Notes under the pieces: generated by a model
What the model was told of the DNA's origin: nothing
Database searches by the model: none
The model's input: the letters and a program-made list of their open reading frames with translations, nothing else
Source: a virus
DNA length: 60,564 bases
IMG/VR virus record: IMGVR_UViG_3300035670_000224
Coordinates: 1 to 60,564 of that record
Strand: one strand, 5' to 3'
In this document: one piece after another, positions 2,951 through 9,360 of the stretch
Layout: each line of letters starts with the position of its first letter
Position numbering within the stretch: the stretch's first letter is position 1
Translations under genes and position numbers: made by a program

Positions 2951-3183
2951 TGTTTACTATTTCTTTTGTATATGTGCTAAGCCTAGGTGCTACCCTTTCT
3001 TATGGAATTTTTGATAAATTTTCTAGGCTTGTCACTGTCTCTTATGCTGAGGCAGCGTACAACACTGTTCTTGCGATAACCCCAGTGCTAAATTCTTTTA
3101 CAGCTTTGCTGTTCACTTTCAGATTCTACAGGAAGAAGGTTAAAGACCTAGATATATTATCCACTTCACTTGACAATCATTAA
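2944..3183 (+). CDS. Small membrane protein, two transmembrane segments
   Basis: The 79-residue product has hydrophobic stretches at ~2-22 and ~40-60, followed by a basic RFYRKKVK tail, so two inner-membrane helices are likely. It overlaps the upstream gene by 7 nt and its own end overlaps the next promoter. No family recognised; a superinfection-exclusion or accessory lysis role is possible but not supported further. Confidence 0.55.
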   Translation: MLVFTISFVYVLSLGATLSYGIFDKFSRLVTVSYAEAAYNTVLAITPVLNSFTALLFTFRFYRKKVKDLDILSTSLDNH

Positions 3184-3198
3184 AAAATATGTTATAAT
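3170..3198 (+). promoter_or_regulatory. Consensus sigma-70 promoter
   Basis: Perfect TTGACA, 17-nt spacer, extended TGTTATAAT. It is preceded by TTCAC, the same context as the promoters at 18612 and 25046. Confidence 0.85.
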
Positions 3199-3345
3199 TA
3201 AATGTCAAGCATAAAATAATATAAATTCAATACTTAGGTTATCAGGATAACAAAATCTTCTTGCCCTGCCTTAACACTGAAGTAAATTACGATTGTTTGA
3301 CATAATCTGTTGACACTCGTTTACTCCTTTCTGATTGACTCAACC

Positions 3346-3375
3346 AAGGGAACAGTAACCCTTCCCTTCGGGGTT
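3346..3375 (+). promoter_or_regulatory. Leader with two mutually exclusive hairpins
   Basis: AAGGGAA (3346-3352) pairs with TTCCCTT (3362-3368). The overlapping AACCC (3357-3361) pairs instead with GGGTT (3371-3375). The two stems cannot coexist. They lie in the ~190-nt leader between the promoter and the ATG at 3396, a layout seen in attenuators or translational switches. Confidence 0.35.
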
Positions 3376-3395
3376 TAATAAATAACTAAGTAGGT

Positions 3396-3575
3396 ATGGA
3401 AACTAAAAATAATAAGAATGGTTACAATAGAAAACCATCAGGAATATTTGCACAAGAGGAAGAAGACGACTTCTACCTAGAGATACAGACCTTGGTAAAT
3501 CCTACAGGCTGTACGCCTGTTGTACTGTACGATAGAGAAGAAGAGATACAAGAAAATAACTTATACAGTGCTTAG
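3396..3575 (+). CDS. Hypothetical acidic 59-residue protein
   Basis: ATG at 3396, stop TAG at 3573-3575. The product starts METKNNKNGYNRKPSGIF, contains a run of five acidic residues (EEEDD) and a second acidic stretch near the C-terminus. It is soluble and has no Cys pair or signal peptide. The ribosome site is weak (TAAGTAGG, close to the start). It is the only ORF served directly by the 3170 promoter. Function unknown. Confidence 0.5.
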   Translation: METKNNKNGYNRKPSGIFAQEEEDDFYLEIQTLVNPTGCTPVVLYDREEEIQENNLYSA

Positions 3576-3596
3576 GAGTACGGTATAATAGAAATA

Positions 3597-3670
3597 TGTG
3601 TTGTCGTCTAAATGCTAGGACAGCCCTCGACGGAGGGTAGATGCAGGTTAAAATCCTGCCGATGCGTACA
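3597..3670 (+). tRNA. tRNA-like element with aberrant anticodon loop
   Basis: The acceptor (TGTGTTG with CGATGCG, several G-U pairs), a D-stem GTCT/GGAC, an anticodon-like stem GCCCT/AGGGT and a perfect T-stem GCAGG/CCTGC can be drawn. However, the anticodon loop is 6 nt (CGACGG) without a recognisable U33, the D-loop lacks GG and the T-loop lacks C56. No CCA is encoded. It is best read as a degenerate tRNA or tRNA mimic; no amino acid identity can be assigned. Confidence 0.35.
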
Positions 3671-3933
3671 AGACTTTCAGCGAGTAGCTGATGGCACTAT
3701 GGAAAGACATAGACCAAAATAAAACGTACTGTGACTATAATAATAAAAAAGCAGTACATTTGGTTTTGGTGCGGTGTGGATGGACACACAAGGCGAGTTA
3801 TGTTTGCGTGAATAAGAATCGCAAACGGCGGGCTGTTAATACGTAATAGACAGGCACTGGCAGGGTCTTAAAAATCCGAGACGCTAATCGGCAACCTGCA
3901 AGCTGGTATCAAGCCCAGTCACCAATTAAATCA
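3671..3933 (+). other. Hairpin-rich noncoding stretch before tRNA-Glu
   Basis: No ORF with a ribosome site. Successive stems include TCAGC/GCTGA, CTATG/CATAG, GTACTG/CAGTAC, GTGT/ACAC, GTTTGCG/CGCAAAC and a nested set near 3850-3925 (ACTGG/CCAGT enclosing GCAGG/CCTGC and GTCTT/GAGAC). This density suggests a structured RNA co-transcribed with the tRNA. I cannot assign it to a family. Confidence 0.35.
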
Positions 3934-4008
3934 GATGCTATCGTATAATGGTCAGTACAGCAGGTTTTCATCCTGCTAATCAGAGTTCAATTCTCTGTAG
4001 CATCTCCA
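3934..4008 (+). tRNA. tRNA-Glu (anticodon TTC)
   Basis: Acceptor GATGCTA pairs perfectly with TAGCATC. D-stem GTAT/GTAC, anticodon stem GCAGG/CCTGC with 7-nt loop TTTTCAT, T-stem CAGAG/CTCTG with loop TTCAATT. Discriminator T and an encoded CCA follow. This is a canonical class I tRNA. Confidence 0.92.
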
Positions 4009-4794: not shown

Positions 4795-4871
4795 TGACGG
4801 TTAGCCAAGCTGGTTAAGGCATCGGATTTTGATTCCGACATTCGCAGGTTCAACTCCTGCACCATCTGCCA
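4795..4871 (+). tRNA. tRNA-Gln (anticodon TTG)
   Basis: Anticodon stem TCGGA/TCCGA with loop TTTTGAT, T-stem GCAGG/CCTGC with loop TTCAACT, D-arm GCC/GGC, encoded CCA at 4869-4871. The acceptor TGACGGT/ACCATCT has a U-U at 1-72 and a C-A mismatch at 4-69. The weak 1-72 position is typical of glutamine tRNAs, while the 4-69 mismatch is unusual. Confidence 0.85.
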
Positions 4872-5492: not shown

Positions 5493-5582
5493 GTTTTAAC
5501 AACAGCTAGGGTCATTCCCGAAAGAGAACTCCTCATTCTCCCGCTGTTTGTTTTATTTTAGAGGATTATCTGAGGAGATAAT

Positions 5583-7298
5583 ATGGGAATGTTTACAGAC
5601 TTAATTAAAAACAGTAAACAAAGTGAAAATGAACGCTTTGAATCGAACAGAAGAGATGCTGAGAAACGCGGGCTTGATTTATTAAGTCATTTCTCAGAGA
5701 ACAATCAGTGGTTTGGTAATTACATCTTCAAGAGTTGTGGTCACTCGACCACCAGACAAATTAATAATATCCGCAACAGTAAAGGCGTACTTGTGTGTAA
5801 AGAGTGTTCTGACTTGAGAGCACAGCAATCAGAAGTATTGAGAGGTCTAGTTTGCCTTGGTGCTGCTTCCGACGGGCATATACGAAAACAAAGATACAAG
5901 GTATTAGCCTGTGGACACGAAGTTGACATTTTTAACGGTAATATGCAAAAACCGCCGTACAACTTATACCCTTGCAAAGAGTGCCTTACCGCAAGGCGGA
6001 ATAAGTTGTTAGAAACGCTGGGGATATCTGTTGTTGAAAACGGTGAACTGGGTAAAACATCTCTTCGCAGGGGGCATCTTTACCAAGAGTTTAAGTATTC
6101 TGGGTGTGGACACAGATTTTCAGCTTTGTTTACGCACCTTGAGGAAAGACCTCGTGGCTGCGTAGAGTGTAAAAAGTTAGAGAGTTCAAAATTGAACTCA
6201 GAGGTGGATACAACAGAAAATCCACGGTTAACAGGTAAGTTCAAGACAAGAGATATACCTGTCAGCCATAAAAAGATTAACGAAGCAATAGAGAAAGGTC
6301 TAACGCTTATCTCTGCTAGTAATAACCGTTGTTACGGCTACTATAGATTACCCTGCGGGCATAATTCATTCCTGCACTATGGTGCAGTCCGAAAAGCGAA
6401 AACTAACTTATTTAAATGTGAGCCTTGCTTAGATTTGAAGTTAAAGGCAGAAGCCGAGAATGTAGGTATTACTTATATTAAAGGTTTATTTGATATTAAG
6501 AAAAACTATATAAGAAATTACCAATTCCCGTGTGGTCATGTGTTACAGTTACGAACTGACAATGTTCGCACAGGGAAAATATCTTGCACAACGTGTAAAG
6601 AGGAGAAGTATAAAAGTGAAGCCACTGAAAGAGGTTTAGTATTACTTTCAGTTGGAGATAGGCAGTCCACCTATAACTACTTATTACCTTGTGGTCATAT
6701 TAAACCGACATATCTGTCATCCGTGAGGAACTACTCTTGGAAATGTAGAGAATGTCAGGAGCAAAGGTATTCCGAAGAGGCAAAAGCTGCTGGTCTTGTA
6801 ATGAACAGGAATGTGAAGAGTCATCACCATGATTATCGTAACTACACATTACCTTGCGGCTGTTCTAAAGATATAAGCATATTTTGTGTAAAGAATAAAT
6901 CCTTTGAGTGCAAAACACATCCAGATAGAAAGTTTGATTTCAGTCAACCAATATCTGTGTACTTAATTAAACTAATACTTCAAGACACTGAGGTTTTGAA
7001 ATTAGGTTATAGCAATGAACCCTCAAGACGGTTCAGGTGCTATGGTCTGGATGGTTCAGTAGAGGTCATCAAGGTTATAGAGTTCAGTAACGGACAAAAC
7101 GCTGTGGACTTAGAACGGCATTTGCACGAGAAGTACAGGCACATATCACTTAATTCTGAACAGATGTCGAACTACATGGGAAACGGTTTCACAGAGTGTT
7201 ACCCATTGGAAATGAAAGACACGTTGTTGAAAGAATTACAAGTTCTTGAAACAACATACAAAGGTACATTAAAAGAAGAAAGGAAACCTCTTGAGTGA
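5583..7298 (+). CDS. Free-standing GIY-YIG-type nuclease with seven zinc-ribbon repeats
   Basis: ATG 5583 follows TGAGGAGA. The 571-residue protein has seven tandem modules of about 55-80 residues, each with CGH (the last CGC), a spacer of about 20-25 residues, and CxxC or a degenerate form. They start near residues 52, 109, 175, 258, 317, 371 and 425. The C-terminal ~100 residues (VYLIKL, KLGYSNEPSRRF, LERHLHEKY) match the GIY-YIG/T5orf172-like nuclease fold with its Tyr, Arg and Glu. The ribbons would provide long modular DNA recognition. Its location between terS and an intron-split terL suggests a homing endonuclease acting on terL, possibly mobilising the ORF-less introns in trans. Its stop overlaps the terL start. 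Confidence 0.75.
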   Translation: MGMFTDLIKNSKQSENERFESNRRDAEKRGLDLLSHFSENNQWFGNYIFKSCGHSTTRQINNIRNSKGVLVCKECSDLRAQQSEVLRGLVCLGAASDGHIRKQRYKVLACGHEVDIFNGNMQKPPYNLYPCKECLTARRNKLLETLGISVVENGELGKTSLRRGHLYQEFKYSGCGHRFSALFTHLEERPRGCVECKKLESSKLNSEVDTTENPRLTGKFKTRDIPVSHKKINEAIEKGLTLISASNNRCYGYYRLPCGHNSFLHYGAVRKAKTNLFKCEPCLDLKLKAEAENVGITYIKGLFDIKKNYIRNYQFPCGHVLQLRTDNVRTGKISCTTCKEEKYKSEATERGLVLLSVGDRQSTYNYLLPCGHIKPTYLSSVRNYSWKCRECQEQRYSEEAKAAGLVMNRNVKSHHHDYRNYTLPCGCSKDISIFCVKNKSFECKTHPDRKFDFSQPISVYLIKLILQDTEVLKLGYSNEPSRRFRCYGLDGSVEVIKVIEFSNGQNAVDLERHLHEKYRHISLNSEQMSNYMGNGFTECYPLEMKDTLLKELQVLETTYKGTLKEERKPLE

Positions 7299-7701
7299 AC
7301 AAATCATAATCGGACCACGCTCCAAAAAGCAAGAAATGTACATCCAGAGCGAATGTGACGTAGTTGTGTTCGGTGGTGGAGCAGGCTAAAGCTGGAAAAA
7401 GTTTTCTGGGAGCAATGGATACATTGAAATACACAGAAGACCCTAAATTTAGAGCACTTGTAGTTAGAAGGTTAACCCCACAGATTCACGGTCCTGGGGG
7501 TATCTTTGAAACATTTGCAAACCTTCATAGAGAAATCTATGATACTAGATTAAAGGTCAAAAAACGTGACGGTATTTTAGAATACCCTAACGGTGGTACA
7601 ATTTCATTCCGCCACTGCCAATATGAGGACGACAAACACTCGTTCCAAGGTTGGCAGTTGAGTATGGCTTAACAGAAAGTTAATAGATGAGGCCCAACAG
7701 T
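7291..7701 (+). CDS. terL: Large terminase subunit, exon 1 (ATPase motifs; frame broken twice)
   Basis: TTG 7291 has an AGGAAA site and overlaps the upstream stop. The product begins SEQIIIGPRSKKQEMY and reaches the P-loop, VVVFGGGAG, where an in-frame TAA occurs at 7387. Removing TAAA (7387-7390) restores GGGAGAGKSF, the canonical Walker A. The frame then runs to GWQLSMA, where a second TAA sits at 7670. Removing ten bases (7670-7679) restores MALIDEAQQ, the canonical spacing to Walker B. The exon ends at T7701, defined by pairing with the intron guide. With both insertions and both introns removed, TerL is about 488 residues, normal for the family. TerL pumps DNA into the prohead and cuts the concatemer. 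Confidence 0.75.
7387..7390 (+). other. Stop-containing micro-insertion in Walker A of terL
   Basis: GGAGCAGGC-TAAA-GCTGGAAAA. The four bases begin with an in-frame TAA at a codon boundary and shift the frame by +1. Skipping only the T would also restore the frame but adds a lysine inside the P-loop. Either bypassing, frameshifting or a sequence error must be invoked, since TerL is essential. Confidence 0.6.
7670..7679 (+). other. Stop-containing 10-nt insertion before Walker B of terL
   Basis: ATGGCT-TAACAGAAAG-TTAATAGATGAG. Like the first insertion it starts with TAA at a codon boundary, is 1 modulo 3 in length, follows GGCT and ends in an AAA(G) run. Without it the protein reads MALIDEAQQ, which fits the family spacing. 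Confidence 0.6.
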
Positions 7702-7991
7702 CAATTTTGTATTAGCTGTTGTAAAATCCCTTGAATTGCTGGAATCCCCTCAGAGCCTTTAAGCTACAACAAAACTGGAAACGGTAAGTGTGAATGCGTG
7801 AAAATTAAAGGATTGGGCAATCAGCAGCTAAGACTCTGAAATGAGTAAAGTTCAACGACTATTCCGTAAGGAAGTAGTAGGAAAGTTCCTACGAAGCGGG
7901 GGAGTACGAAAGTACATGATATAGTCTATTCTAGTGCGAAAGTACTAGCAGCGAAAGCGGTTTAGTATTGACGATACTAAGCGAATAAAAG
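7702..7991 (+). ncRNA. Group I intron in terL (intron 1)
   Basis: A 290-nt self-splicing intron without an ORF. P1 is visible: exon CAACAGT pairs with the guide GCTGTTG (7735-7741) with a U-G at the 5' splice site after T7701. The conserved Q/R/S core is present: GCAATCAGCAGCTAAG, GTTCAACGACTA and GATATAGTCTA, with P7 as GACTAT/ATAGTC. The 3' end is the G at 7991. Splicing joins T7701 to TG at 7992, giving a Leu codon and DEAQQLTQSQVIYIMSRLRS, exactly the expected TerL sequence. Confidence 0.88.
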
Positions 7992-8277
7992 TGACACAAT
8001 CTCAGGTTATTTATATCATGTCTCGACTACGGTCTGAGGCAGCTATGAAACCTAAAATGCGAATGACGTGTAACCCAGCAGGTAAAGGGCATTGGTTAAC
8101 TAATTGGTTGGAGTGGTATCTACTTCCATCAGGTTTACCAGACCCCGATAAATGTGGTGTTGTAAGATACTTCACCATGAATGACAATGAAATGATATGG
8201 GGCGACACAGCTGAAGAAGTAAAAGAAAAAGTACAAGGGTGTTCTCCATTGAGTTTCACCTTTATTTCTGCAAACGT
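7992..8277 (+). CDS. terL: Large terminase subunit, exon 2
   Basis: The exon encodes TQSQVIYIMSRLRSEA, then motif III (RMTCNPAG), and continues to SPLSFTFISANV. These are the coupling region and the end of the ATPase domain. Both borders are fixed by intron base pairing and by continuity with the family sequence. The stop at 8285 belongs to intron 2. Confidence 0.85.
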
Positions 8278-8576
8278 AAATTTATAGCGTCCTGTAAGAG
8301 AAATCTTACTTGAATAACCTTGTTAACTCAGGGGAAGCCTTACCATTAGGTTGAAGGTAATCCTGAGCTTGTGTTGTTAAATATACAACCCAAGTGCAAC
8401 GACTATCGAAACCGCTCATTATGAGATAAGGGAGTAGAGTAGCTTCAAGTGAAGCGAAACGCAAGGGGTCTGATTGGTGATAGCCAAAGACCGTGATATA
8501 GTCTGGTCTTAATGGAAACATTAAGCAGCTTGAATAAAGCGAGTAGGATATTAACGAATCCTGCTGAACAAACACG
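8278..8576 (+). ncRNA. Group I intron in terL (intron 2)
   Basis: A 299-nt ORF-less intron. P1 pairs exon ACGT (ending 8277) with GCGT just inside the intron, placing U-G at the splice site. P2 is GTAAGA/TCTTAC with a GAAA-type loop. The core contains AATCCTGAGC, GTGCAACGACTATCG and GATATAGTCTGG. The intron ends at G8576 after P9-type hairpins (CTTAATG/CATTAAG; AGGAT/ATCCT). Splicing gives ANVYDNPT, the expected TerL sequence. Confidence 0.87.
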
Positions 8577-9360
8577 ATACGACAACCCAACCTTGCTACA
8601 AAGGCAGCCACAATACGTTGCATGGTTAGAAGGTCAAGACCGAGAAACCAAAGAGGCTCTTCTTTACGGGAACTGGTATGTCACAAAACAGCAGGAAAAC
8701 TACTTTAAACGCGCTTGGTGCAGGTTAATTCAAGATGTACCACCTGTTATACAATCAGTAAGAGGTTTTGACTTAGCGGGTAGTATTAAAGACGAGGTAA
8801 ACAAAGACCCTGACTATACTGCCACAGCCTTGTTGCATAAAACAAAGGATGGTAGATATGTCATTGAACACGCTGACCACATCAGAGAGAGATTTCACAC
8901 TGTAGAAGAGTGGATATTTAAATTGAGCGAAACAGACGCAGATAATGTAGTCTACGTGATTCCTGTTGATGCTGGAGCAGCGGGTAAAGCCTACGCTTCT
9001 ACACTTCAAAAGAAACTCGCAGAAAGCGGAAGAGCTTGTAGATTATTTCCAATGTCTAACAAAAGCAAGCTAGTACGTTTTAGACCTTTTGCATCAGTAG
9101 CTCAGGCTGGTTATATTGATATACTTAATTCTCAGTGGAATACTTTTTACTTTGACGAGTTAGAAAAGTTCAGCGGAGATGGTAAAACACATGACGATAT
9201 GTTAGATGCTACAGTTGCTGGATTTTGGTTTTTAAATCAAGTCCGACAACTCCCCAGCTTCACCCTCCCCGACCTCTCCCAGTCAACCTCTTTTGGCTTT
9301 CAGTCAAGCGCACTCCCAACAGAATTAACCTCTCCTTTACAACAAGGTGAGTTTTTATAA
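8577..9360 (+). CDS. terL: Large terminase subunit, exon 3 (nuclease domain)
   Basis: Begins within YDNPTLLQRQPQYVAWLEG. It carries the RNase H-like nuclease domain with acidic residues in VRGFDLAGS...DPDYTA, a DAGAAGKAY segment and a C-terminal HDDMLDA motif, which coordinate metal for cutting concatemeric DNA at packaging start and end. The ATG at 8512 lies inside intron 2 and is not a real start. The portal gene follows after 20 nt. Confidence 0.87.

Follow-up and report, generated by a model that had tools for sequence, protein, structure and literature searches.

The nearest described counterparts of the locus analyzed here come from translation and from RNA splicing. In bacteriophage T4 gene 60, ribosomes cross a 50-nt gap bounded by matched GGA codons, and this insert is thought to protect the gene against an adjacent endonuclease (PMC5009743). 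The mitochondria of Magnusiomyces capitatus contain 81 byp inserts (PMC5009743), which are distributed across many genes and are bypassed by the translating ribosome. On the RNA side, engineered group I ribozymes are described as excising segments of as many as 28 nt in vitro and, in E. coli, of a single nucleotide (PMC4094466, PMC6155759), and the corresponding reaction, trans-excision-splicing (Bell, Johnson and Testa 2002; Baum and Testa 2005), is outlined in the reviews PMC6155759 and PMC4094466. Finally, the terL gene of phage SIOphi harbors tandem group I introns whose splice sites are reported to be exchangeable, the 5' site of one intron being joinable to the 3' site of the next (PMC11878797).

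The terL gene examined in this work shares features with all four systems and departs from each of them. As in T4 gene 60, stop-containing inserts interrupt a phage gene that is essential and associated with a homing endonuclease, with target protection as a likely role; unlike in gene 60, the inserts measure 2-11 nt, lack matched codons, obey a single RNA cut rule and are strictly linked to an intact group I intron. Many short, frame-breaking inserts in essential genes are also what M. capitatus byps represent, but those are longer and show no linkage to a ribozyme. Group I introns in a phage terL recall SIOphi, where, however, both introns have their own ribozyme core and, in the part of PMC11878797 that describes them, no micro-introns are mentioned. 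The closest resemblance is to trans-excision-splicing, in which a group I ribozyme removes a short internal segment (1-28 nt there) whose 3' end is a G, while a guide in P1 holds the 5' exon. In contrast to those laboratory constructs, the system proposed here would be natural, would act on several segments of the ribozyme's own mRNA and would rely on an exonic guide.

Results

The sequence under study, hereafter the window, comprises 60,564 bases and is a virus record of IMG/VR. Its terL region is organized as follows; here and below, a slash within a sequence marks a cut site or junction.

5583..7298, + strand: GIY-YIG-type homing endonuclease gene, 571 aa, between terS and terL (ORF list; Pfam MUG113, GIY-YIG-like, E 2e-4)
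7291..7387, + strand: terL exon 1a, ending in ...GCAGGCU, which reads MSEQIIIGPRSKKQEMYIQSECDVVVFGGGAG (aligned with the intact TerL of L004)
7384..7387, + strand: GGCU, 5' boundary motif of putative micro-intron 1 (Gly codon GGC invariant in 8/8 carriers)
7388..7391, + strand: putative micro-intron 1, AAAG, 4 nt, within Walker A (comparison of carriers with intact genes)
7392..7669, + strand: terL exon 1b, from the rest of Walker A to ...SMA, ending in AUGGCU (spliced-ORF reconstruction)
7666..7669, + strand: GGCU, 5' boundary motif of putative micro-intron 2 (Ala codon GCU invariant in carriers)
7670..7679, + strand: putative micro-intron 2, TAACAGAAAG, 10 nt, just before Walker B (sequence; alignment with intact relative)
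7680..7701, + strand: 22-nt mini-exon UUAAUAGAUGAGGCCCAACAGU (LIDEAQQ plus one base), from putative micro-intron 2 to intron 1
7691..7694, + strand: GGCC, candidate second guide (IGS') for GGCU, with U.G at the cut (invariance in carriers)
7702..7991, + strand: group I intron 1, 290 nt (Rfam RF00028, 60 bits; junction as in intact L004; P10)
7992..8277, + strand: terL exon 2
8278..8576, + strand: group I intron 2, 299 nt (Rfam RF00028, 60.5 bits; junction ANV/YDNP as in L002-L004)
8577..9360, + strand: terL exon 3, including the stop codon

The final codons of the endonuclease gene overlap the start of terL, which presumably initiates at a TTG codon in exon 1a. Upstream of terS, the window also encodes tRNA-Glu(TTC) at 3934-4008 and tRNA-Gln(TTG) at 4795-4871, and a sub-threshold Rfam match to int-alpA RNA (33 bits against a cut-off of 35.8) lies at 5499-5564, between terS and the endonuclease gene. 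The sign of the GC skew switches at about 38000, which suggests that the two halves of this genome are transcribed in opposite directions.

A preliminary description of the window had reported two stop-containing insertions in the ATPase motifs of TerL, and both are borne out by comparison with relatives. The ten bases at 7670-7679 (TAACAGAAAG) are flanked by ATG GCT and TTA ATA GAT GAG GCC CAA CAG, whereas in the nearest intact relative the two flanks adjoin directly (ATGGCTTTACTAGATGAGGCTCAACAG); NRK residues are therefore not normal at this point of the protein. The first insertion had been described as TAA following GGC in Walker A. Its best bounds are AAAG at 7388-7391, because the U before it counts with the upstream exon and completes a Ser codon once the insert is gone: with this U the insert forms the stop UAA, and taking AAAG out yields GGC UCU GGA AAA, that is, G-S-G-K.

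Protein and pattern scans of IMG/VR recovered terL relatives on 14 contigs, making 15 genes with the window. Eight of them are carriers, namely the window and seven further IMG/VR contigs (G001=L043, G002=L046, G003=L047, G004=L050/L045, G006=L002, G007=L024 and G008=L044), together drawn from at least five samples, the source samples including IMG 3300020045, 3300046328, 3300043399, 3300016667 and 3300006037, and the remaining seven have an intact terL (G005=L048, G009=L042, G010=L039, G011=L040, G012=L041, G013=L038 and G014=L004). The record of G004 spans 75.9 kb, and its ends overlap by 22 nt, which indicates a circular record. A protein search found no carriers among GTDB genomes, matches among cultured phages all fell below 60% identity (the best rows at about 44%), and a P-loop pattern scan for more carriers returned only those already known and one chance match.

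Inserts occupy both sites in all eight carriers and neither site in the seven intact relatives; the recurrence of the pair in seven independent relatives shows that it is more than chance. At site 1, in Walker A, GGCU is followed by AAAG (window, G003, G007), AG (G001, G002, G006, G008) or AATAG (G004). At site 2, before Walker B, it is followed by TAACAGAAAG in the window, GACTAGAAAG in G001, ACCTATATAAG in G002, ACCTAAG in G003, TGATAG in G004, AACTAGAAAG in G006, AACTAAAAG in G007 and AGATAG in G008. G004 alone has a third site, CGAAGGCU/AUCUACUCAG/UACUCC, where removal restores RRLTPQIH. These 17 inserts, of 2-11 nt, are unlike in sequence and varied in their effect on the reading frame. 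A stop results at site 1 in all carriers and, in frame, within the site 2 insert in seven of the eight, and a frame-split comparison of the genes of G000-G005 found no micro-inserts elsewhere.

Comparison across carriers also redefines what the inserts have in common. They had been characterized as 1 modulo 3 in length, beginning with TAA, preceded by GGCT or GGC and ending in AAA(G). The length class holds in the window only: over all carriers, site 1 inserts measure 2, 4 or 5 nt and those of site 2 measure 6, 7, 9, 10 or 11 nt, spanning every modulo-3 class (net frame change of 1 or 2 at site 1, and of 0, 1 or 2 at site 2). Nor is a leading TAA a rule, as AACTAG, GACTAG, ACCTAAG, AGATAG and TGATAG occur as well. 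The flanks are corrected to GGCU before the insert and AG at its end, a pattern (GGCU/...AG/) that all 17 inserts follow even though the three sites fall in three different codon phases. In every case, therefore, U is the last base of the 5' exon and G that of the insert, which is the boundary rule of group I introns. No insert contains a catalytic core of its own.

When the GGCU/..AG/ rule is applied and the introns are removed, each of the eight carriers yields a single TerL reading frame of 478-499 codons. The restored proteins all contain FGGGAGSGKS and GWQxSxALxDEAQQ, and the seven intact relatives likewise have GGGAGSGKS and ALxDEAQQ, with Ser at site 1 in 7/7. The alternative uniform rule, GGC/U..A/G, was rejected because its product is wrong at sites 1 and 3: with the cut one base earlier, site 1 would read Ala (found in none of the seven) and site 3 would give RRR instead of RRL. 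It is hence the product that fixes the boundaries at sites 1 and 3, with the exon ending in U and the insert in G. Sequence comparison indicates purifying selection on the part of terL that follows both inserts, with pN/pS of 0.10-0.34 across all pairs and no stops, and the gene is present in single copy in the six genomes compared. The comparison thus supports a functional terL in carriers, and a reading of the insertions as repair scars in a dead gene is not supported by it.

Intron 1 has the conserved catalytic core of group I introns (RF00028, 60 bits, E 1e-12), a perfect and invariant P1 between exonic CAACAGU (7695-7701) and the internal guide GCUGUUG (7715-7721) with U.G at the 5' site, a terminal G (omega-G, 7991) and a P10. 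Its junction, CAACAGU/UGACAC (DEAQQ-L-TQ), is that of the intact relative L004. Across the eight genomes, 59 of 72 P10 positions are paired, G003 and G004 show compensatory changes, and swapping partners between genomes reached this value in 68 of 5000 trials. Seven of the eight copies of intron 1 end in AG, that of G008 ending in CG. A placement of P1 on GGCT/TAAC suggested by Rfam, under which everything from 7670 would be intronic, was discarded: LIDEAQQ would be deleted, and both the intact relative and P10 put the 5' site after CAACAGU. The Rfam placement of P1 on GGCU varies among carriers and was not counted as evidence. G001-G004 gave no group I match other than intron 1; in the window it is joined by intron 2, and an Rfam search at E 0.01 revealed no third. 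Intron 2 is an ordinary group I intron, found among these terL genes only in the window and without an adjoining micro-insert.

Codon usage at the sites is constrained. Outside them, codons for constant residues are codon-invariant across the eight carriers in 0 of 57 fourfold cases and 1 of 67 twofold cases. GGC at site 1, GCU at site 2 and GAG GCC CAA CAG just before intron 1 are nonetheless identical in all eight, and the codon preceding GCU at site 2 is ATG, GCG or GGG, the residue varying while the G stays constant. The invariance of CAA CAG is explained by the P1 pairing of intron 1. The preceding GAG GCC, replaced in non-carriers by GAG GCT, GAA GCC, GAA GGT or GAA ATT, contains GGCC; among the invariant 4-mers of intron 1 and its flanks that begin with G, this one alone can pair with GGCU. 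The putative GGCU/GGCC helix has four pairs with both strands invariant in 8/8 carriers, and hence zero covariation, and its GGCC is exonic rather than intronic; part of the GAGGCC invariance may also stem from co-conversion with the intron. Where introns sharing this P1 occur in other genes, GGCC is absent next to the P1. Two further introns belong to the same sub-family: one, at about 4930 on the minus strand of L129, lies in a coat-protein-like gene and has the CAACAGU P1 but no adjoining GGCC, and the other is in a Thiovulum MAG (L207:5894-5917). Another candidate guide, AGAGCC within intron 1, is complementary to site 1 and was not adopted, since G007 has AAAGCU in its place and the element recurs in the related L052 intron outside terL. 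GGCU..AG also occurs in exons, where it is kept (e.g. GGCUGGCAG in G002), and no avoidance of GGCU was seen in carrier exons; the rule is therefore insufficient, and something more must mark the true sites.

The inserts and intron 1 are distributed alike. Intron 1 follows DEAQQ/ in 8/8 carriers and 0/7 intact genes, so that its presence and that of the inserts agree in all 15 genes, with a Fisher probability of 1 in 6435 to be read with the non-independence of the genes in mind. Carriers are interspersed with non-carriers on the TerL tree (five changes, of which four or more are forced), and carrier G002 and non-carrier G009 are sister rows with nearly no divergence in their C-terminal regions, providing a natural near-isogenic pair. 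Both observations imply that inserts and intron 1 are gained or lost together. In all eight carriers, as in two of the seven non-carriers, terS and terL are separated by a homing-endonuclease-like gene; in carriers it is a GIY-YIG relative in six cases (the window and five others) and HNH in G008. In G002, the gene at this position (L046:3181-4005, 275 aa) has no Pfam match and is possibly a new type of endonuclease. The distribution supports the notion that inserts, intron 1 and upstream endonuclease gene make up a mobile cassette at the DNA level, in line with the mobility that had been suspected from the window.

Several non-carriers have introns of their own in the same motifs. Small, ordinary group I introns are located in Walker A of G010-G012 (L039, L040 and L041; GGCGGU/../GCUGG), a few bases from site 1, and in L042 (G009) Walker B is closely preceded, at about 3048-4006, by a group I intron that contains an endonuclease-like frame. 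These positions point to the motifs as favored targets. With T4 gene 60 as precedent, the inserts probably also spoil endonuclease target sites in the ATPase motifs and so protect the DNA, and their stops would keep ribosomes off unspliced terL RNA.

Discussion

The comparative evidence supports the view that the inserts are real, conserved and tied to intron 1, that they follow a single cut rule and that the gene is functional. The reading we favor, which we regard as probable by a moderate margin, is that they are micro-introns excised from the terL mRNA, likely by the ribozyme of intron 1 with GGCC as guide, and that they belong to a mobile cassette and probably protect the DNA. From the sequences we infer removal at the RNA level and, with less certainty, the identity of the catalyst and of its guide. 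Removal would have to act on RNA boundaries and not on codons, since the four bases that mark the cut are identical at sites in three codon phases and since the Ser codon is built from the U before the insert and the CN after it, which a ribosome keeping its codon pairing cannot achieve. The ribozyme of intron 1 is proposed on account of the group I boundary rule, the AG ends and the standing of intron 1 as sole group I match in G001-G004.

Under this proposal, two transesterifications, at GGCU/ and AG/, would take each micro-intron out of the terL mRNA, and the catalyst would be the group I ribozyme of intron 1, which starts 22 nt downstream of micro-intron 2. For its own splicing, intron 1 uses the P1 formed by CAACAGU and GCUGUUG. 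For micro-intron excision, the upstream GGCU would pair with the exonic GGCC directly abutting the P1 stem, which would then take the position of P2; guanosine would cleave after GGCU, the freed U would attack after the AG of the insert, and intact TerL would result. With respect to the P10/P9.0 contacts used at the 3' site in trans-excision-splicing, the inserts end in AG/ like most copies of intron 1, and their P10 is weak. That a single group I ribozyme splices three to four introns per mRNA, itself and two to three coreless micro-introns of 2-11 nt, through an exonic second guide, we judge to be slightly better than an even prospect.

Among other explanations, the one that fares best, although unlikely, also removes the inserts from RNA, through a protein or another RNA: a GGCU..AG/YY hairpin would be cut and sealed by an endonuclease and an RNA ligase of phage or host. 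Local pairing of GGCU with AG/CC or AG/UU is indeed available at sites 1 and 2 in most carriers and would add to a GGCU..AG rule that does not suffice alone, but site 3 lacks a local hairpin, the inverted repeat at 2-nt inserts (GGCUAGCC) leaves a loop of zero, and neither the strict co-occurrence with intron 1 nor the invariant GAG GCC would be accounted for.

Ribosomal bypassing, as in T4 gene 60 or the Magnusiomyces byp elements, had been put forward for the window, and we consider it improbable. At site 1 a Gly codon is immediately followed by a stop, downstream of a homing-endonuclease gene, as in gene 60, and bypassing in a terminase has been proposed for Streptomyces phage Hau3 (PMC5009743). 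Matched take-off and resume codons are found in no carrier, the codon before the resume point being GCN against GGC at site 1 and AAG/UAG against GCU at site 2; some Magnusiomyces byps do lack perfectly matched codons, but here the product would also lose the Ser that is universal in intact relatives, and at site 3 it would be wrong, either losing Leu or requiring a hop between unlike codons. Inserts of 2-5 nt are too short for a coding gap, the frame change is not constant, with lengths in all modulo-3 classes, and the dependence on intron 1 is left unexplained, whereas one RNA cut rule accommodates 17/17 inserts across the three codon phases.

Programmed frameshifting or stop readthrough, yielding TerL at low level across inserts that confer immunity on the DNA, would be in keeping with the stops and frame changes at both sites, with a low demand for TerL and with the proximity of endonuclease genes. 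It is very improbable, however, as the net change varies modulo 3 among carriers so that no single shift suffices, and the extra residues would fall within Walker A and Walker B. That the genes are dead or the inserts assembly errors can be virtually dismissed, given eight agreeing contigs from at least five samples, one of them a circular 75.9-kb record (G004), and a sole terL copy with otherwise intact ATPase motifs and purifying selection downstream.

Conclusions

Two similarly built inserts in the ATPase motifs, associated with introns and with a homing-endonuclease gene, had been described as new; this assessment holds, and the gene that contains them is live. Even if the mechanism were ribosomal, the maintenance by eight phages of stop-containing inserts of 2-5 nt within Walker A would constitute a new decoding event. 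To our knowledge, neither natural trans-excision-splicing nor introns as short as 2 nt were known before. If excision by the ribozyme of intron 1 is correct, terL would provide the first natural instance of trans-excision-splicing and the shortest introns, and these introns would rely entirely on a ribozyme located in another part of the transcript. The origin of spliceosomal introns is postulated to have passed through a step in which degenerate introns were served by a shared catalyst, and the micro-introns, here with a phage group I ribozyme as that catalyst, would offer a living model of introns that lose their own ribozyme for a shared one. Gene finders would call such genes broken, and others may hence have been missed. 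For the phages themselves, the proposed system would mean that the DNA of essential motifs could be armored against homing endonucleases while the encoded protein remains unchanged.
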